Assembly (NCBI RefSeq): GCF_019059575.1
Contig: NW_024881540.1
Coordinates: 186,001 to 250,000, forward strand
Length of the DNA: 64,000 nt
Reading direction: 5' to 3'
DNA from: Amphibalanus amphitrite
Lineage: Eukaryota > Arthropoda > Thecostraca > Balanomorpha > Balanidae
Of the stretch, positions 23,801-60,444 are shown piece after piece. The notes below the pieces were generated by a model, which saw nothing but the letters and a program-made list of their open reading frames with translations, was not told where the DNA came from and searched no databases. The position numbers and the translations under genes are program-made. Every line of letters starts with the position of its first letter. Within the stretch, counting starts at the first letter, position 1.

Positions 23801-26800
23801 GCATTTCTCGATGTTGTGAGTGCCGAAACCGGTAATTGTGAGCCAGGGACCCCATTTTGGCTATCTCAACTCAAATCTAATGTTAAGGTGGGAGGGTCCC
23901 TTTAATAGAACTTAGTAAGTCGACGCGAAATCCGGCTACGAGATTATAGGTAAATGGAATTTACAAAACAAACTGGACAGAATAGCTTCTCCGATAAGTA
24001 ACAAGTTGAGATCACGTCAAATGTCCATAAGCCGGTTAAGCCTTCACTATTTAACACGCTAAGTCTTTTTTTTTTGTTCGCATGGCATTGATAATAAGCC
24101 CATGCACTAAGATGTTGAAATTCGGTGTAATTGAATAGGGAAGGTGCATAGCAAGATTAAATCGTTATGTAGGATCATGACCGTTTTTATATGATGAACT
24201 TAATTCTGGACATGTCTTCTTACACGGGCACGGAGTCATCTACGAGTGTGCGGAGAAGGGAAATGTGTCTCATGGCTGTGACTGATCTACTCGGTGAGGG
24301 CCGCGCCGGACTGGTGTAAATATGTGTGTGTGTCAGTCCGGCTGCTACTGGCAGTACTCGGTGTCGGTGCCGGCCGCAGCCTCTGGTGTATGTGCGCATG
24401 TCTGTGAGTTTGTCGCTGCTACTCACCGTACTCTGTGTCGGTGCCGGTCGCGTATATTCGGATGCAGTATGAGCAGAGCATGGGTCCCGAAAAATTCTTC
24501 AGAAACTAGAGAAATTCTCGCGGGGCAGGACGTCTGTCAAACTAGCAGCGAGCAGCGAGCAGCGAGTCCAGCAGCGAGAAACGGGCCATCCCGATTTAGC
24601 TGAACATTTGCTCACAGAGCCTTCTCAGCACGCTGATTCCGAAAATCATGGTCTCTAGGGTAGGAATCTTTACCGTTCTCGAGATAGAACCCTCTAAAGT
24701 TTTCGACACCCATGACCGGGCCATCCCGATTTGGCTGAAAATTGGCTCACAGCTCTCACAGAGCCTTCTCAGCACGCTGATTCCGAAAATCATGGTCTCT
24801 AGGGTGGGAATCTTTACCGTTCTCGAGATAGAACCCTCTAAAGCTCTTACCACCCATGACCGGGCCATCCCGATTTGGCTGAAAATTGGTTCACAGCTCT
24901 CACAGAGCCTTCTCAGCACGCTGATTCCGAAAATCATGGTCTCTAGGGTGGGAATCTTTACCGTTCTCGAGATAGAACCCTCTAAAGCTCTTACCACCCA
25001 TGACCGGGCCATCCCGATTTGGCTAAAAATTGGCTCACAGAGCCTTCACAGCACGCTGATTCCGAAAATCATGGTCTCTAGTGTGGGAATCTTTACCGTT
25101 CTCGAGATAGAACCCTCTAAAGTTTTCGGCACCAAAGACCGGGCCATCCCGATTTGACTGAAAATTGGCTCACAGAGCCTTCTCAGCAAGCTGATTCCGA
25201 AAATCATGGTCTCTAGGGTGAGAATCTTTACCGTTCTCGAGATAGAACCCTCTAAATTTCTTACCACCCATGACCGGACCATCCCGATTTGGCTGAAAAT
25301 TTGCTCACAGATCCTTCTCAGTTCTCAGCACGCTGATTCCGAAAACCATGGTCTCTAGGGTGGGAGTCTTAACCGTTCTCGAGACAGAAACCTCTAAAAT
25401 TTTCGACACCCATGACCGGGCCATCCTGATTTGGCTGAAACTTGGCTCACAGAGCCTTCTCAGCACGCTGATTCCGAAAATCATGGTCTCTAGGGTGGGA
25501 ATCTTTACCGTTCTCGAGATAGAACCCGCTAAAGCTCTTACCACCCATGACCGGGCCATCCCGATTTGGCTGAAAATTTGCTCACAGAGCCTTCTCAGCA
25601 CGCTGATTCCGAAAATCATGGTCTAGGGTTAGAATCTTCACCGTTCTCGAGATAGAACGCTCTAAAGTTTTCGACACCAAAGACCGGGCCATCCAGATTT
25701 GGCTGAAAATTTGCTCACAGAGTCTTCTAAGCACGCTGATTCCGAAAATCATAGTCTCTAGGGTGGGAATCTTTACCCTTCTCGAGATAGAACCCTCTAA
25801 ATTTCTTACCACCCATGACCGGACCATCCCGATTTGGCTGAAAATTTGCTCACAGATCCTTCTCAGTTCTCAGCACGCTGATTCCGAAAACCATGGTCTC
25901 TAGGGTGGGAGTCTTAACCGTTCTCGAGACAGAAACCTCTAAAATTTTCGACACCCATGACCGGGCCATCCTGATTTGGCTGAAACTTGGCTCACAGAGC
26001 CTTCTCAGCACGCTGATTCCGAAAATCATGGTCTCTAGGGTGGGAATCTTTACCGTTCTCGAGATAGAACCCGCTAAAGCTCTTACCACCCATGACCGGG
26101 CCATCCCGATTTGGCTGAAAATTTGCTCACAGAGCCTTCTCAGCACGCTGATTCCGAAAATCATGGTCTAGGGTTAGAATCTTCACCGTTCTCGAGATAG
26201 AACGCTCTAAAGTTTTCGACACCAAAGACCGGGCCATCCAGATTTGGCTGAAAATTTGCTCACAGAGTCTTCTAAGCACGCTGATTCCGAAAATCATAGT
26301 CTCTAGGGTGGGAATCTTTACCCTTCTCGAGATAGAACCCTCTAAAGTTTTCGACACCCATGACCAGGCCATCCTGATTTGATTGAAAATTTTCTCACAG
26401 AGCCTTCTCAGCACGCTGCGGCTGATTCCGAAAATCATGGTCTGTCAAATCGACCGGGCCATCCCAGTCAAAGCGGGATGGCCCGGTCATGGGTGGTAAG
26501 AGCTTTAGAGGGTTCTATCTCGAGAACGGTAAAGATTCCTACCCTAGAGACCATGATTTTCGGAATCAGCGTGCTGAGAAGGCTCTGCCCAGTAAACATG
26601 CCGACGTCGGCCCGACGTCGGCTGGATGTCGGATATGCCCGCATGTTCCGACGTCCAGCCGAGGTCCAGCCGACGTCGGGCCGACGTCGGACCGAGATCA
26701 ATTGCTGAGGTCCAGCCGACGTCGGGCCGACGTCGGGGCGACGTCGGACCGACATCGGCCGCTGTTTTGACCGTTAAAATAATATAAAATACGTGTTTCA

Positions 26801-29800
26801 TGTTTCATAAAGAGCTTCTGTATTCAAAATATCCTCAGGAAACTCAAATATTCCTCCACGCCGCAACCCCCTGATCCGGACTGGACGGGAAACTTTATCC
26901 CATTTGGGATTGCCCGTAAGCCGAGCTCGCCCGTAGCCGGGTGCGGTGAGTGCTTGGGGGCTGCTCGGCCTATCCTTTGGTCAGGCTCAGCCCCGGCAAC
27001 TCACCAGGGCCGGGCCCAGTTCATATAGAAAGGCCAGTCGGCAAGTGTCACTTTGCCAGAGTGCCACTTATCAACGGGACACTTTGGGAAACGTTGGTGC
27101 AGGTGTGTAAGAGTGGCTATATGAATCCATTGTGGGGTCGCCTTTCCAATACGTGTCACGTAACAGCAATGGGACCAGGGGCAGGGACTCTATAATGAAC
27201 TGGACCCAGGGTGCTCGCCAAGAAGACCAATGTCTCCATCCTATGATCCTTCCGGCTCTGATATGGTCTTGTCAGACCGAAAGGGCATAACCCAACAAAA
27301 CAAACCAAACTCGTTAGCTGGCTGCGTGGTGTAGTGGTTAGCGCACTAATCTCGCGTTCGGATGACATGGGGTTCGAAGCCCATCGCCGGCTGATGCTTT
27401 TGGCGTGTTGTCCCAGTAAACATGCCGACGTCGGCGACTGGGGGGCTCGAATCCCGCCGCCGGTTGATATTTTTGGCGCGTTGTCCCAATAAACATGCCG
27501 ACGTCGGCCCCGTCGGTCCAACGACAAACGATCTCGTCAACCTCGGCAAACGATCTCGGCCCGACGTCGGCTCGACGTCGGCTGGACTTCGGCTGGACGT
27601 CGGAACATGCGGGCATATCCGACGTTCAGCCGATGTCGGGCCGAGGTTGAACCGCCGTTGGGCCGACGTCGGGCCGAGCCTCGGCCCGACGTCGGGCCGA
27701 CGTCGGCATGTTTACTGGGTGTGAGCAAATTTTCAGCAAAATCGGGATGGCCTGGTCATGGGTGGTAAGAACTTTAGAGGGTTCTATTTCGAGAACGGTA
27801 AAGATTTCCACCCTAGAGACTACGATTTTCGGAATCAGCGTGCTGAGAAGGCTCTGTAAGCCAATTTTCAGCCAAATCGGGATGGCCCGGTCATGGGTAG
27901 TAAGAATTTTAGAGGGTTCTATCTCGAGAACGGTAAAGATTCCTACCCTAGAGACCATGATTTTCGGAATCAGCATGCTGAGAAGGCTCTGTGAGTCAAT
28001 ATTCAGCCAAATCGGGATGGCCCGGTCATGGGTGTCGAACATTTTAGAGGTTTCTATTTTGAGAACGGTTAAGATTCCCACCCTAGAGACCATGATTTTC
28101 GGAATCAGCGTGCTGAGAACTGAGAAGGATCTGTGAGCAAATTTTCAGTCAAATCGGGATGGCCCGGTCATGGGTGGTAAGAAATTTAGAGGTTCTATCT
28201 CGAGAACGGTAAAGATTCTCACCCTAGAGACCATGCTTTTCGGAATCAGCTTGCTGAGAAGGCTCTGTGAGCCAATTTTCAGTCACATCGGGATGGCCCG
28301 GTCTTTGGTGCCGAAAACTTTAGAGGGTTCTATCTCGAGAACGGTAAAGATTCCCACCTTAGAGACCATGATTTTCGGAATCAGCGTGCTGAGAAGGCTC
28401 TTTGAGCCAATTTTTAGCCAAATCGGGATGGCCCGGTCATGGGTGGTACGAGCTTTAGAGGGTTCTATCTCGAGAACAGTAAAGATTCCCACCCTAGAGA
28501 CCATGATTTTCGGAATCAGCGTGCTGAGAAGGCTCTGTGAGCAAGTTTTCAGCCAAATCGGGATGGCCCGGTCATGGGTGGTAAGAACTATAGAGGGTTC
28601 TATCTCGAGAACGGTAAAGATTCCCACTCTAGAGACCATGATTTTCGGAGTCAGCGTGCTGAGAAGGCTCTGTGAGCCAATTTTCAGCCAAATCGGGATG
28701 GCCCGGTCATGGGTGTCGAAAACTTTAGAGGGTTCTATCTCGAGAACGGTAAAGATTCCTACCCTAGAGACCATGATTTTCGGAATCAGCGTGCTGAGAA
28801 GGCGCTGTGAGCAAATTTTCAGCTAAATCGGGATGGCCCGTTTCTCGCTGCTGGACTCGCTGCTCGCTGCTCGCTGCTAGTTTGACAGACGTCCTGCCCC
28901 GCGAGAATTTCTCTAGTTTCTGAAGAATTTTTCGGGACCCATGCTCTGCTAATACTGCATCCGAATATACGCGTGCCGGTCGTAGCCTCTGGTGTATGTG
29001 CGTACGTCTGTGAGTTTGTCGCTGCTACTCACCGTACTCTGTGTCGGTGGTGGCCGCAGCCTCTGGTGTGTGTGGGTATGTCTGTGAGTTTGTCGCTGCT
29101 ACTCACCGTACTCTGTGTCGGTGGTGGCCGCAGCCTCTGGTGTGTGTGCGTACGTCTGTGAGTTTGTCGCTGCTACTCACCGTACTCTGTGTCGGTGGTG
29201 ACCGCGCCGCCCAGGCCCGGCTCGGGGCGCAGCTCGCCGCTCGGACACGCCGCGAACGTGGACACGCCCGGCGAGGGGGGAGGCGCCAGGTGGTCGTCCT
29301 CGTCCCCGCCGGCGGACAGCACGTCGTACGCCAGCAGCGAGCCCATCGAGTCGGCTGCGGGACATAACACATCAGTACGGCAGCAGACAGCACGTCGTAC
29401 ACCAGCAGTGAGCCAATCGAGTCGGCTATCGAAAGTTAGAAGCGAGTTGAAGGCGCATTGCGTCTTTGCATGACGAAAAAATGACAAAAAAGTTGGAAAG
29501 GTGTAAATCAACTACGTAGACCTCGTACCCCCGGTGTCAATGGGAAATATCGATGGCATCAAGCAGTACACTCCAAGATTGAATATAGCAAGGAAAAAAA
29601 TGTTGGCCAAACTGAAGAACCGCAAAGCAATAACACTAAATGCTGGATGTATTGTGAACGCTGAACTGTGAAGCCAACCGCGAGTGAAGCAAAGGCAAAT
29701 CACATAGAAAAAAGGAGAAGGTGACGATATTGGAGAACAACGATGAAAATAAAATAATCTAAGAATTATGAGAATAAGCTGCTTAAGAATCTGGCCACAC

Positions 29801-41467: not shown

Positions 41468-41751
41468 TGCGGACGCTTTTGCGAGGCTTATATCTCAGCA
41501 ACCACTTGACCGATTTACACGGGGTAATTTTTGTAGGGTAGCTTCATTCCTTCTACCAAGTATTGGACTATTCCCGATGCATGCGGGTGACCCCATATGC
41601 ACGGCCACGCGCAAAACGAAGAGGTGTCAGTTTTATAATTGTTGCAATATCTCGGTAACTACTCGGGCGATTGCGCTGAAAGTTGGCATGTAGGTAGGCA
41701 CCCACTAGGCACTGCATATCCATGTGCCAGAGTTGGGGTGCTGCTGCACGT

Positions 41752-41995
41752 GCGCACGTGCAGGGGTCGTTTCCAGATCTCGAGAACGGCTGGACCGATG
41801 GCGCTCAAATTTGGTACACGGTTAGGGACCAGTTAGTAGGGTGCCGTGCACAAGTCAGTTGGGACCCATTCTTCACGTGCGCACGTGCAGGGTGCCGCTT
41901 CCAGATCTCGAGAACGGCTGGGCCGATTGTGCTCAAATTTGGCACATCGCTAGAGACCGGTTAGTAGGGTGCCGTGCACAAGTCAGTTGGAGGTA
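41752..41995 (+). repeat. 128-bp tandem repeat, two copies
   Basis: The phrase CCAGATCTCGAGAACGGCTG starts at 41773 and again at 41901. Units also share GTGCGCACGTGCAGG and TTAGTAGGGTGCCGTGCAC. A weaker related segment precedes it (about 41645-41700). AGGTCA-type sequence resumes further right (42270-42300, 42600-42625), so this may lie in a longer decayed element. Confidence 0.7.
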
Positions 41996-59107: not shown

Positions 59108-59113
59108 GCTATA

Positions 59114-60442
59114 CACCTTTTTAGCCGCGATTTAAAACAGTTGAACTCCATTTTAAAAAAGCTGATCTGTGATTTAAAACTGTTGAACTTGGGTTTAAAA
59201 CACATGACTTCCGTTTTAAAAGAATTGAATACGATTTTAAAACAACTGACGACGATTTTAAAACAGTTGAATTTATTTTTAAAAGAACTGAACTGCATTT
59301 TAAAAAGCATGATAGGGCCGGTAACACTCCAGCTACACTTATAATGATAATAGCTAATAATATAACTAATAATTAACTATAACTAACACAATGAATTTGT
59401 TGTCATGCAACCTTATCTAATACCTTGCCTTTTCTGTTGAAAGTGTAACTAATTTTTGTTTGCCGATGTGTTCTGATTATTGCTTTTTGCAACGTTTTTA
59501 AAGATAAAAATCCCACTGCATTTATTGCAAGGCTATTCAGATAACATTGTCCGAGTGGTTTCACTGCTTAACAGTCGTTAGCTAACATAGAAATTATTCG
59601 AAACTATGTACACATGTAACTTTGCATAGAAAATCGTCATGCTTTTGTGACGCATCTATCTTTACATATCTTCGGGCATTCTACATGCAGCCGGTGCACA
59701 GCATAGCTTATGCACCCAGCATAGCTTATGCAGCCGCCTGAGCTATTTCTTCTCTTACAGCAGTGACAGTTTTTTCATCATCGGTGACTAATCAAGTCAC
59801 CGATACTGGGTGATGACATTGTCTAAAGTAGACAATGTCAGTAAAAACATTGTCATTGTCAATAAAAAGTAGACAATGTGTAAAGTAGATACTTTCCTTA
59901 AAGTAAATGCGAATATAATATGCCTTTTATAAAGTGAATGCAACACCTACTATGTAGAATCTATGTATATGTACAGTCGCTCGAACGTTGAGCCCAGTGA
60001 CAAGTGACCCAAGTGACCTATACATGGCCTGGTGCCCTGGGGAGTGGCAGTCTTGCATATATACCGAACAGAAAAAGTGGAAAAATGGAAAGTCACGAGA
60101 ACAACATTTTACATTTTGTATTTACTCGAACTCTTCCGGTTTGAAGAAGCAGTGCTTCATTCAATTCTAGCAGAAGACGACGCAAAACGGGGGAGCATAT
60201 AGCTATTATCATTATTAGTGTAGCTGGAGTGTTACCGACCCTATCATGCTTTTTAAAATGCAGTTCAGTTCTTTTAAAAATAAATTCAACTGTTTTAAAA
60301 TCGTCGTCAGTTGTTTTAAAATCGTATTCAATTCTTTTAAAACGGACGTCATGTGTTTTAAAACCCCGTTCAACAGTTTTAAATCACAGATCAGCTTTTT
60401 TAAAATGGAGTTCAACTGTTTTAAATCGCGGCTAAAAAGGTG
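59114..60442. mobile_element. 1329-bp foldback with ~245-bp arms of TTTTAAAAC repeats
   Basis: Arms 59114-59358 and 60198-60442 are inverted copies with only a few mismatches. Ends are CACCTTTTTAGCCGCG. TA flanks both sides (59112-59113, 60443-60444). Each arm has eight or so units of about 27 bp built on TTTTAAAACAGTTGAA. The loop (59359-60197) has no recognisable gene. Lysine/leucine-rich frames across the arms are by-products. Confidence 0.8.
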
Positions 60443-60444
60443 TA

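Follow-up and report, generated by a model that had tools for sequence, protein, structure and literature searches.

The element and its insertion site

The window, a stretch of 64,000 nucleotides on contig NW_024881540.1 of Amphibalanus amphitrite, contains a foldback element of 4523 bp at 24450-28972. Minus-strand frames matching the PITP domain (IP_trans) lie on one side of the element at 34-35.8 kb, and a minus-strand DDHD-matching frame lies on its other side at 19.7-20.7 kb. These flanking frames give good support to the intron placement in the original prediction, and the element probably sits in an intron of a PITPNM-like lipid-transfer gene. The features of the locus are as follows:

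24341..24449, unstranded: interrupted 74-bp tandem array, left part (TRF on joined flanks; period 74 spans the junction)
24441..24449, plus strand: target site duplication GTGCCGGTC, left copy
24450..24520, plus strand: left terminal inverted repeat (TIR), 71 bp, with similar ends in other copies
24521..24610, plus strand: left subterminal block, comprising the array head GACGTCTGTCAAACTAGCAGCGAG (87 head matches genome-wide) together with the beginning of unit 1
24611..26445, plus strand: left arm, 13 full ~135-bp units plus a partial one, containing a block that recurs 545 bp onward (nhmmer, TRF)
26446..26463, unstranded: inversion centre, with a partial-unit junction shared by copies L013, L021 and L028
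26464..26587, minus strand: right arm, first inverted 135-bp unit
26588..27719, unstranded: nested inverted-repeat element with CCCAGTAAACATGCCGACGTCGG ends and a 2-bp TG duplication
27720..28840, minus strand: right arm, remaining 8 inverted ~135-bp units
28841..28901, minus strand: right subterminal block, repeating the left block in inverted orientation
28902..28972, minus strand: right TIR, 71 bp
28973..28981, plus strand: target site duplication GTGCCGGTC, right copy
28982..29205, unstranded: interrupted 74-bp tandem array, right part

The element begins at 24450 with GCGTATATTCGG and ends at 28972, bordered by the 9-bp target duplication GTGCCGGTC at 24441-24449 and 28973-28981. Its left and right 71-bp TIRs are identical at 70 of 71 positions, in keeping with the near-identical inverted ends reported in the original prediction. 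That prediction had placed the bounds at 24449 and 28973 and the duplication at 7 bp; a duplication does flank the element, but its length is 9 bp, and the first and last bases of the earlier interval are duplicated target. With one base misassigned per end, a 9-bp duplication looks like a 7-bp one, and the wrong superfamily is thereby suggested.

In silico deletion of the element and one duplication, followed by TRF analysis of the joined flanks, regained the 74-bp array period (spacings 74, 74, 74), as had been claimed. A genome search with the flanks revealed no empty allele of this locus; apart from the locus itself, it returned a 91% match to part of the right flank on the same contig (695771-696060) and one 45-bp match. 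The element at 24450-28972 is a genuine transposon insertion.

Array arms and centre

Analysis with nhmmer confirmed two arrays of a ~135-bp unit in opposite orientations, with 14 matches on the left, including one partial, and 9 on the right. The right array is interrupted by the nested inverted-repeat element at 26588-27719, which the original prediction had overlooked. The central junction is common to the window element and three further copies (L013, L021 and L028), each of which has a ~1.25-kb arm 98.6-99.0% identical to the right arm of the window element. The unit numbers differ: the window element carries 13 full units and a partial one on the left and 9 on the right, and L028 carries 8 full units and a partial one on the left and 9 on the right. 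The inverted arm measures ~1.25-1.3 kb in the window element and L028, ~1.06 kb in L021 and ~0.8 kb in L013. The element thus has the foldback architecture of inverted arms with a varying number of tandem units, and these four copies show long TIRs as expected of the MuDR/Foldback superfamily, a feature that some of its families lack. Copies of the non-foldback type have inverted ends of 71-74 bp.

Derivation of the 135-bp unit from the terminal repeat was considered on the strength of an 18-base match with 15 identities. This match, one of eight comparisons made, was reached by 4 of 400 shuffles and is too weak to claim. Separately, the unit shares a 13-base exact match (score 26; best of 300 shuffles, 24) with a 128-bp array at 41747, which we regard as a lead only.

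Other copies and their target duplications

Two variants of the 24-base terminus gave 107 and 43 exact genomic copies, with none for the reversed controls, and the shorter terminus CGCGTATATTCGG gave 74, with 8 for its reversed control. Four places bearing CGCGTATATTCGG (L025, L026, L042 and L043, in 12.6-kb-spaced repeats on C10 and C310) were rejected as relatives and excluded from the copy counts as an unrelated repeat: in a blast comparison the match of L025 to the window element ended after 14 bases, and the four resemble one another. Two places on C1099 show a spacing identical to that of these 12.6-kb repeats.

A total of 38 copies were paired, leaving out loci with a single end within the fetched stretch (L027, L033, L040, L050-L055, L058 and L060-L062), the unrelated CGCGTATATTCGG repeat, L037, which has no end, and L047, which lies within L017. 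Perfect 9-bp duplications were found in 34 of the 38, with 8 of 9 bases matching in one further copy and no duplication in three. The 34 perfect duplications and the near-perfect one cover 31 distinct target sites, counting duplicates once, since L010/L011, L012/L023 and L014/L018 are each the same insertion on duplicated DNA and L031 and L057 have a target 9-mer in common. When lengths of 4 to 12 were tried on the first 32 paired copies, only length 9 was exact in 29, and the remaining 3 were exact at no length. Foldback copies whose ends were read carried a perfect 9-bp duplication in 10 of 15 cases. Of these 15, the 11 beyond the paired set account for 6 (C599 by eye and 5 of 10 scanned pairs); among the 5 scanned pairs with no perfect duplication, two had missing or truncated ends. 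Copies with no duplication include two on C357, one on C123, L034 and L045. Comparison of printed letters also revealed a paralogous empty site, the left flank of C599 being continuous through the insertion point of the C263 copy. Copies with the same ends and target duplications, whose absence the original prediction had named as grounds for refutation, were thus recovered.

A 7-bp duplication with a terminal C as the element end was rejected. The C at one end had been fixed by the search pattern itself, and in duplication-bearing copies with another base at the opposite end, that base equalled the flank.

The interiors of the copies are of different kinds. Array-less elements of 1.56-1.78 kb make up 23 of the 38 paired copies, and 21 head pairs were counted for foldbacks with 135-bp arrays like those of the window element; one set of ends therefore encloses at least two interior types. 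Two copies, L022 and L049, had suggested that the 135-bp array might be part of another element with different ends, a view that was dropped. C599 and 9 of 10 further head pairs have TIRs of this family on at least one side, with both ends intact in 8 of the 10. The array head in L022, which has no TIR, is best explained as a truncated copy adjoining another element.

Search for a transposase

The 38 paired copies yielded no recognised transposase; their longest frame that was neither simple sequence nor array encoded a 528-aa reverse transcriptase (RVT_1, in L038). Apart from that frame, and with the four array copies excepted, no frame exceeded 177 aa, and nine other frames from the copies gave no Pfam match.

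The genome itself encodes several candidate enzymes. MULE transposase domains (PF10551) gave 111 matches when 150 of 204 candidates were scored, and 15 of the matches lie in uninterrupted frames >400 aa; in four MULE frames scanned, a SWIM domain was additionally present in two and FLYWCH in one. Merlin (IS1016-type) domains gave 21 matches, with all 28 candidates scored, and P-type transposase domains (PF21787) gave 150 matches among the 150 of 394 candidates scored. Their positions were compared with a list of 148 ends (the full set less two or three), copies that were not fetched being judged by position only. None of the 111 scored MULE matches lay between or near these ends, the nearest being 108 kb off. 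None of the 21 Merlin matches lay between them, although on C435 one falls 4.2 kb beyond a pair of TIRs. By eye, none of the listed P-type matches lay between the listed ends, the nearest being about 22 kb away on C915. No relative with a P-type or Mutator-type transposase, as sought in the original prediction, was thus found in the copies read or among the scored matches between the listed ends.

Symmetric ends with duplications were also sought at 12 native MULE loci, and none emerged, under criteria that proved too strict: flanking repeats were visible by eye at the native MULE L075 (9 bp) and at L073/L074 (8 bp), the latter being one insertion seen twice.

Classification

The element belongs to a new family, probably of non-autonomous DNA transposons that move by cut-and-paste and fall in the MuDR/Foldback (MULE-like) group. 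Because no transposase-bearing copy was found, we infer the superfamily. Duplication length alone is insufficient for the assignment because Merlin transposases, with duplications of 8-9 bp, also occur in the genome. The presence of MULE transposases in the genome and the 9-bp repeat around the native MULE L075 favour the MULE-like reading. The 9-bp duplications fit the 8-11 bp range given for MULEs (PMC6446971).

Four other origins were weighed. A satellite duplicated locally in inverted orientation, with no transposon involved, would account for a core that is an inverted tandem array; this origin is refuted by the other copies, which place identical ends with 9-bp duplications at many unrelated sites, and the target array is regained on deletion. 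The original prediction was right in calling the element a foldback transposon, but the Galileo label is not supported. In favour of a Galileo-like P-superfamily element, mobilised by a THAP/P-type transposase, are the foldback arms with internal repeats and the abundance of P-type domains here; yet the duplications are 9 bp in 34 of 38 copies against the 7-bp flanks of Galileo, none of the listed P-type matches (150 of 394 candidates scored) lies between the listed ends, and this origin is very improbable. P elements have duplications of 8 bp, and neither 7 nor 8 bp was the exact length in any of the 32 copies tried. A Merlin (IS1016-like) family with evolved foldback arms is somewhat less improbable: Merlin elements make target duplications of 8-9 bp, compatible with those seen, and one of the genomic domains lies close to a TIR pair. 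None lies between the listed ends, however, and array-bearing foldback arms are described for MULEs but are not known from Merlin. About equally doubtful is an element of the Rehavkus type, a MULE relative of Arthropoda and Annelida for which 9-bp duplications, TIRs of 26-400 bp and a minisatellite ahead of the 3' TIR are tabulated (PMC6446971, Table 1); against it, the minisatellite in the elements described there lies at one end.

A joint reading outside the MULE-like assignment is unlikely. It supposes a non-MULE transposase, perhaps of a type not yet described, whose preferred target is a palindrome near G-N-N-C-S-G-N-N-C, and 135-bp arrays that act as stacked binding sites and let the foldback subfamily compete for that enzyme. 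If it were true, foldbacks with mismatched flanks would mark inversions or translocations from exchange between copies.

Comparison with known elements

On the best reading, the closest designs are Tetris of Drosophila and Tm1 of nematodes, and the element is not Galileo-like. Tetris, a foldback transposon of Drosophila virilis assigned to the Mutator superfamily by duplication length and precedent, is described as having TIRs that reach 1,735 bp and combine a flanking domain with arrayed ~220-bp repeats, a non-coding middle, duplications of 8-10 bp, no autonomous copy found and a satellite derived from it (PMC4079207). Set against that description, the barnacle element differs in its ~135-bp unit, its outer end of 71 bp plus a short block, its perfect duplications of 9 bp and the array-less elements that its ends also enclose. 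Tm1, a Mutator/Foldback family of Meloidogyne, likewise has composite TIRs whose tandem units vary in number, target duplications that are mostly 9 bp long and several non-autonomous classes with common ends; as described, Tm1 differs in having units of ~14 bp, a known copy with a Phantom-type transposase, asymmetric outer motifs and no clear target preference (PMC3169594).

Resemblance to other systems is more partial. The Muta families of Aedes aegypti share 8-9 bp duplications and numerous non-autonomous derivatives with unrelated interiors; TIRs exceed 100 bp in 12 of 14 families, and 10 of these 12 have subterminal tandem repeats. These repeats are of 9-15 bp, unlike the unit here, transposase copies are known, and Muta1 is described as lacking target preference in yeast (PMC5225508). 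Rehavkus shares the duplication length, a TIR size between tens and hundreds of bases and an internal minisatellite, and is set apart in its description by the position of the minisatellite before the 3' TIR and by a PHD-finger transposase (PMC6446971). Galileo of Drosophila shares foldback-like long TIRs, internal tandem repeats in some subfamilies and copies lacking matching duplications, which in Galileo were shown to be chimeric, and differs in its duplication length and P-type transposase (PMC3573991).

Proposed mechanism and significance

In the proposed MULE-like pathway, a transposase supplied in trans would recognise the 71-bp ends, which start GCGTATATTCG, excise the element and insert it at a target site where the two strands are cut 9 bases apart; filling of the gaps would yield the 9-bp duplication. 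The core is an inverted duplication with one fixed centre, which accounts for the mirror-image 135-bp arrays, and the unit number may change by slippage or unequal exchange.

The element represents a new foldback family in which the same ends occur on array-armed foldbacks and on simpler elements, in a host genome where transposases of the MULE, Merlin and P types still have open frames. Together, the common ends and the open transposase frames make it a usable case for studying the origin and spread of foldback arms.

Structure of the element and its place in the host gene

The window (186001-250000 of contig C43, from an assembly of 807.5 Mb in 2644 contigs) carries an inverted-repeat element with the following parts, in window coordinates.

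24450-28972, inverted-repeat element
26446-26463, meeting point of the two arms
26588-27719, nested inverted-repeat element that splits the right arm after its first unit, with the two bases TG duplicated

The outermost 71 bases form terminal inverted repeats, inversely identical at 70 of 71 positions. Inside these ends lies a short block with GACGTCTGTCAAACTAGCAGCGAG, followed by opposed arrays of a ~135-bp unit, with 13 full units and one partial unit on the left and 9 units on the right. Three consecutive units of the left array recur 545 bp downstream with identical scores, which suggests that a block of this arm was duplicated. The nested element ends in CCCAGTAAACATGCCGACGTCGG, with extra internal copies of this end, and holds 11-bp arrays of the CCGACGTCGG type. 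Letters resembling tRNA box A and box B were seen in it by eye, and ARAGORN made no tRNA calls on it. Another genomic copy, L013, seems to contain sequence similar to the nested element, judged in translation.

Pfam analysis revealed two domains in minus-strand frames: PITP, in three pieces at 34.0-35.8 kb, and DDHD, in the frame at 19.7-20.7 kb, where the match scored 29.5 bits against a cut-off of 28.3. Because the element is located between these matches, it would lie in an intron of a PITPNM/RdgB-type gene, in agreement with the original prediction of a PITPNM intron, judging by domain positions alone.

Two further repeat structures were observed in the window. At 59112-60444, a second foldback-like structure has 245-nt arms that are 98% complementary and 843 nt apart, each containing TTTTAAAAC-type units arrayed with a 21/42-bp period. 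At 41747-41990, a 128-bp unit with a ATCTCGAGAACGG motif occurs twice and has 13 bases in common with the 135-bp unit.

Copies in the genome

Searching the genome with the ends and the array head (the sequence at the array start) recovered the other copies that the original prediction had called for, establishing a multi-copy family. CGCGTATATTCGG occurs at 74 exact places, versus 8 for the reversed control; four of the 74 (L025, L026, L042 and L043) represent an unrelated repeat. The 24-base terminus GCGTATATTCGGATGCAGTATGAG has 107 exact copies and the variant terminus GCGTATATTCGAATGCAGTATGAG has 43, with none for either reversed control. The ends frame differing interiors. Among the 38 paired copies, for which both ends were read, 23 are 1.56-1.78 kb long, and those of them that were compared have only the 71-75 bp end in common with the window copy; L012 contains simple arrays (CT and GTCC-type). 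Several longer copies consist of the same element plus nested insertions. The interior of L035 is largely different.

Target-site duplication and preference

The duplication had been described as 7 bp (TGCCGGT), which made C the first base of the element; once copies were compared, it was revised to 9 bp. The search pattern opened with C, which forced a C at one end of every copy; the base at the other end is A, C, G or T, and agrees with the flank in copies having the duplication. With GCGTATATTCGG as the reference point for counting, 29 of the 32 paired copies have flanks that agree over exactly 9 bases, and at no other length from 4 to 12 do the flanks of any of the 32 match exactly. In the extended set of 38, with 31 distinct targets, 34 copies have a perfect 9-bp duplication, one matches at 8 of 9 positions, and three (L022, L034 and L045) have none. 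The duplication of the window copy is GTGCCGGTC.

Deleting the element and one duplication joins the flanks into a 74-bp array with spacings of 74, 74 and 74, so that the reported restoration of the interrupted array holds. A genome search with this joined sequence recovered the locus as two pieces that overlap by 10 letters where the flanks meet, one letter more than the duplication, and revealed no empty allele of the window locus. The array and the flank right of the insertion also have a 91% match at G000:C43:695771-696060, on this contig at a distance of 0.48 Mb, perhaps representing a paralogous gene segment.

Raw counts over both strands of the 31 distinct targets gave C at position 4 (43/62), C or G at position 5 (50/62) and G at position 6 (43/62), yielding the palindrome G-N-N-C-S-G-N-N-C, in which the search pattern biases positions 1 and 9 and makes them unreliable. 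The target preference is probably moderate, since the palindrome centre is only partly visible in the six foldback copies that came from a different search.

Foldback-type copies

The foldback type, with opposed arrays of the ~135-bp unit, includes the window copy and the loci L013, L021 and L028. One central junction is common to all four, and each of the three loci has an arm of ~1.25 kb that matches the right arm of the window copy at 98.6 to 99.0% identity. The array head occurs at 87 places (control, 0), from which L013 and L021, with altered heads, are absent. Inspection by eye revealed 21 head-to-head pairs at most 10 kb apart, including the window copy and L028; ends were read for 13 of them, namely these two, one on contig C599 and ten more new ones. 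Perfect 9-bp duplications were found in 6 of the 11 newly read pairs (contigs C599, C60, C168, C234, C267 and C310), bringing the foldback copies with perfect duplications to 10 of 15 when the window copy, L013, L021 and L028 are included. Both pairs on C357 have intact ends and mismatched flanks, the C123 copy has intact ends and flanks matching at 6 of 9 positions, the C263 copy is truncated at one end, and neither side of the C13 pair shows a terminal repeat in the 71 bases read. The two C357 copies and the C123 copy, with their mismatched flanks, are possibly products of exchange between copies.

At L049 (G000:C1285:104900-109400), joined to L022, the 135-bp array is broken by another inverted-repeat element, which has AGTGTAATAAATAACAAGTGAAGACACTTC ends and contains a 371-bp unit repeated 5.5 times in tandem.

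Source of the transposase

The full-length relative with a transposase envisaged by the original prediction was not found, either in the frames of the 38 copies or on comparing the tabled ends with MULE, Merlin and P-type matches. The longest frame outside arrays (528 aa, in L038) encodes an RVT_1 reverse transcriptase of a nested insert; no other frame passing the low-complexity filter exceeded 177 aa in the 38 copies, outside four array copies, and nine further frames gave no Pfam matches. Since these frames contain no recognised transposase, the element would most likely have been moved in trans.

MULE-domain matches numbered at least 111 in the genome (150 of 204 candidates scored), 15 of them in uninterrupted frames of more than 400 aa; four such frames were scanned, revealing SWIM in two and FLYWCH in one. 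By eye, the MULE locus L075 has a 9-bp flanking repeat, while L073 and L074, counted as one insertion because their flanks are the same, have an 8-bp repeat. The ends of these three MULE loci are rich in TTTGGTCTAGTG repeats and 79% alike when inverted, over 124 bp. There were 21 Merlin-type matches (28/28 candidates scored) and at least 150 P-type matches (150 of 394 scored), some of the latter in open frames of more than 500 aa. Between the 148 tabled ends (two or three fewer than the 150 exact ends require, since 100 of the 107 places of one terminus were listed), no MULE or Merlin-type match was located; six MULE matches are on a contig with an end, the nearest at 108 kb. Comparison by eye placed no P-type match between ends among the matches listed. 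The transposase superfamily is most likely MULE, because the duplication length points to it, as does the element design.

Relation to known families

The comparisons below are by description. Tetris, from Drosophila virilis, combines long TIRs that include an array of a ~220-bp unit with duplications of 8-10 bp, and has yielded no autonomous copy (PMC4079207). It resembles the present family in its array-bearing long TIRs, in its similar duplication length and in that no autonomous copy was found; its authors assigned it to the Mutator superfamily by the same reasoning. Tm1 of root-knot nematodes has a Phantom-type transposase and composite TIRs that contain tandem units, and its duplications are mostly 9 bp long (PMC3169594); duplication length and tandem units are thus shared with the present family. 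In contrast, Galileo, although its TIRs are foldback-like, has 7-bp flanks and a P-type transposase (PMC3573991). Galileo copies without matching flanks proved to be chimeric in that study (PMC3573991), providing a lead for the C357 and other mismatched copies.

The family is a real foldback transposon with 9-bp target duplications, apparently non-autonomous and most likely MULE-driven. Viewed against literature covering similar designs, it is probably new, and it is of a known kind.
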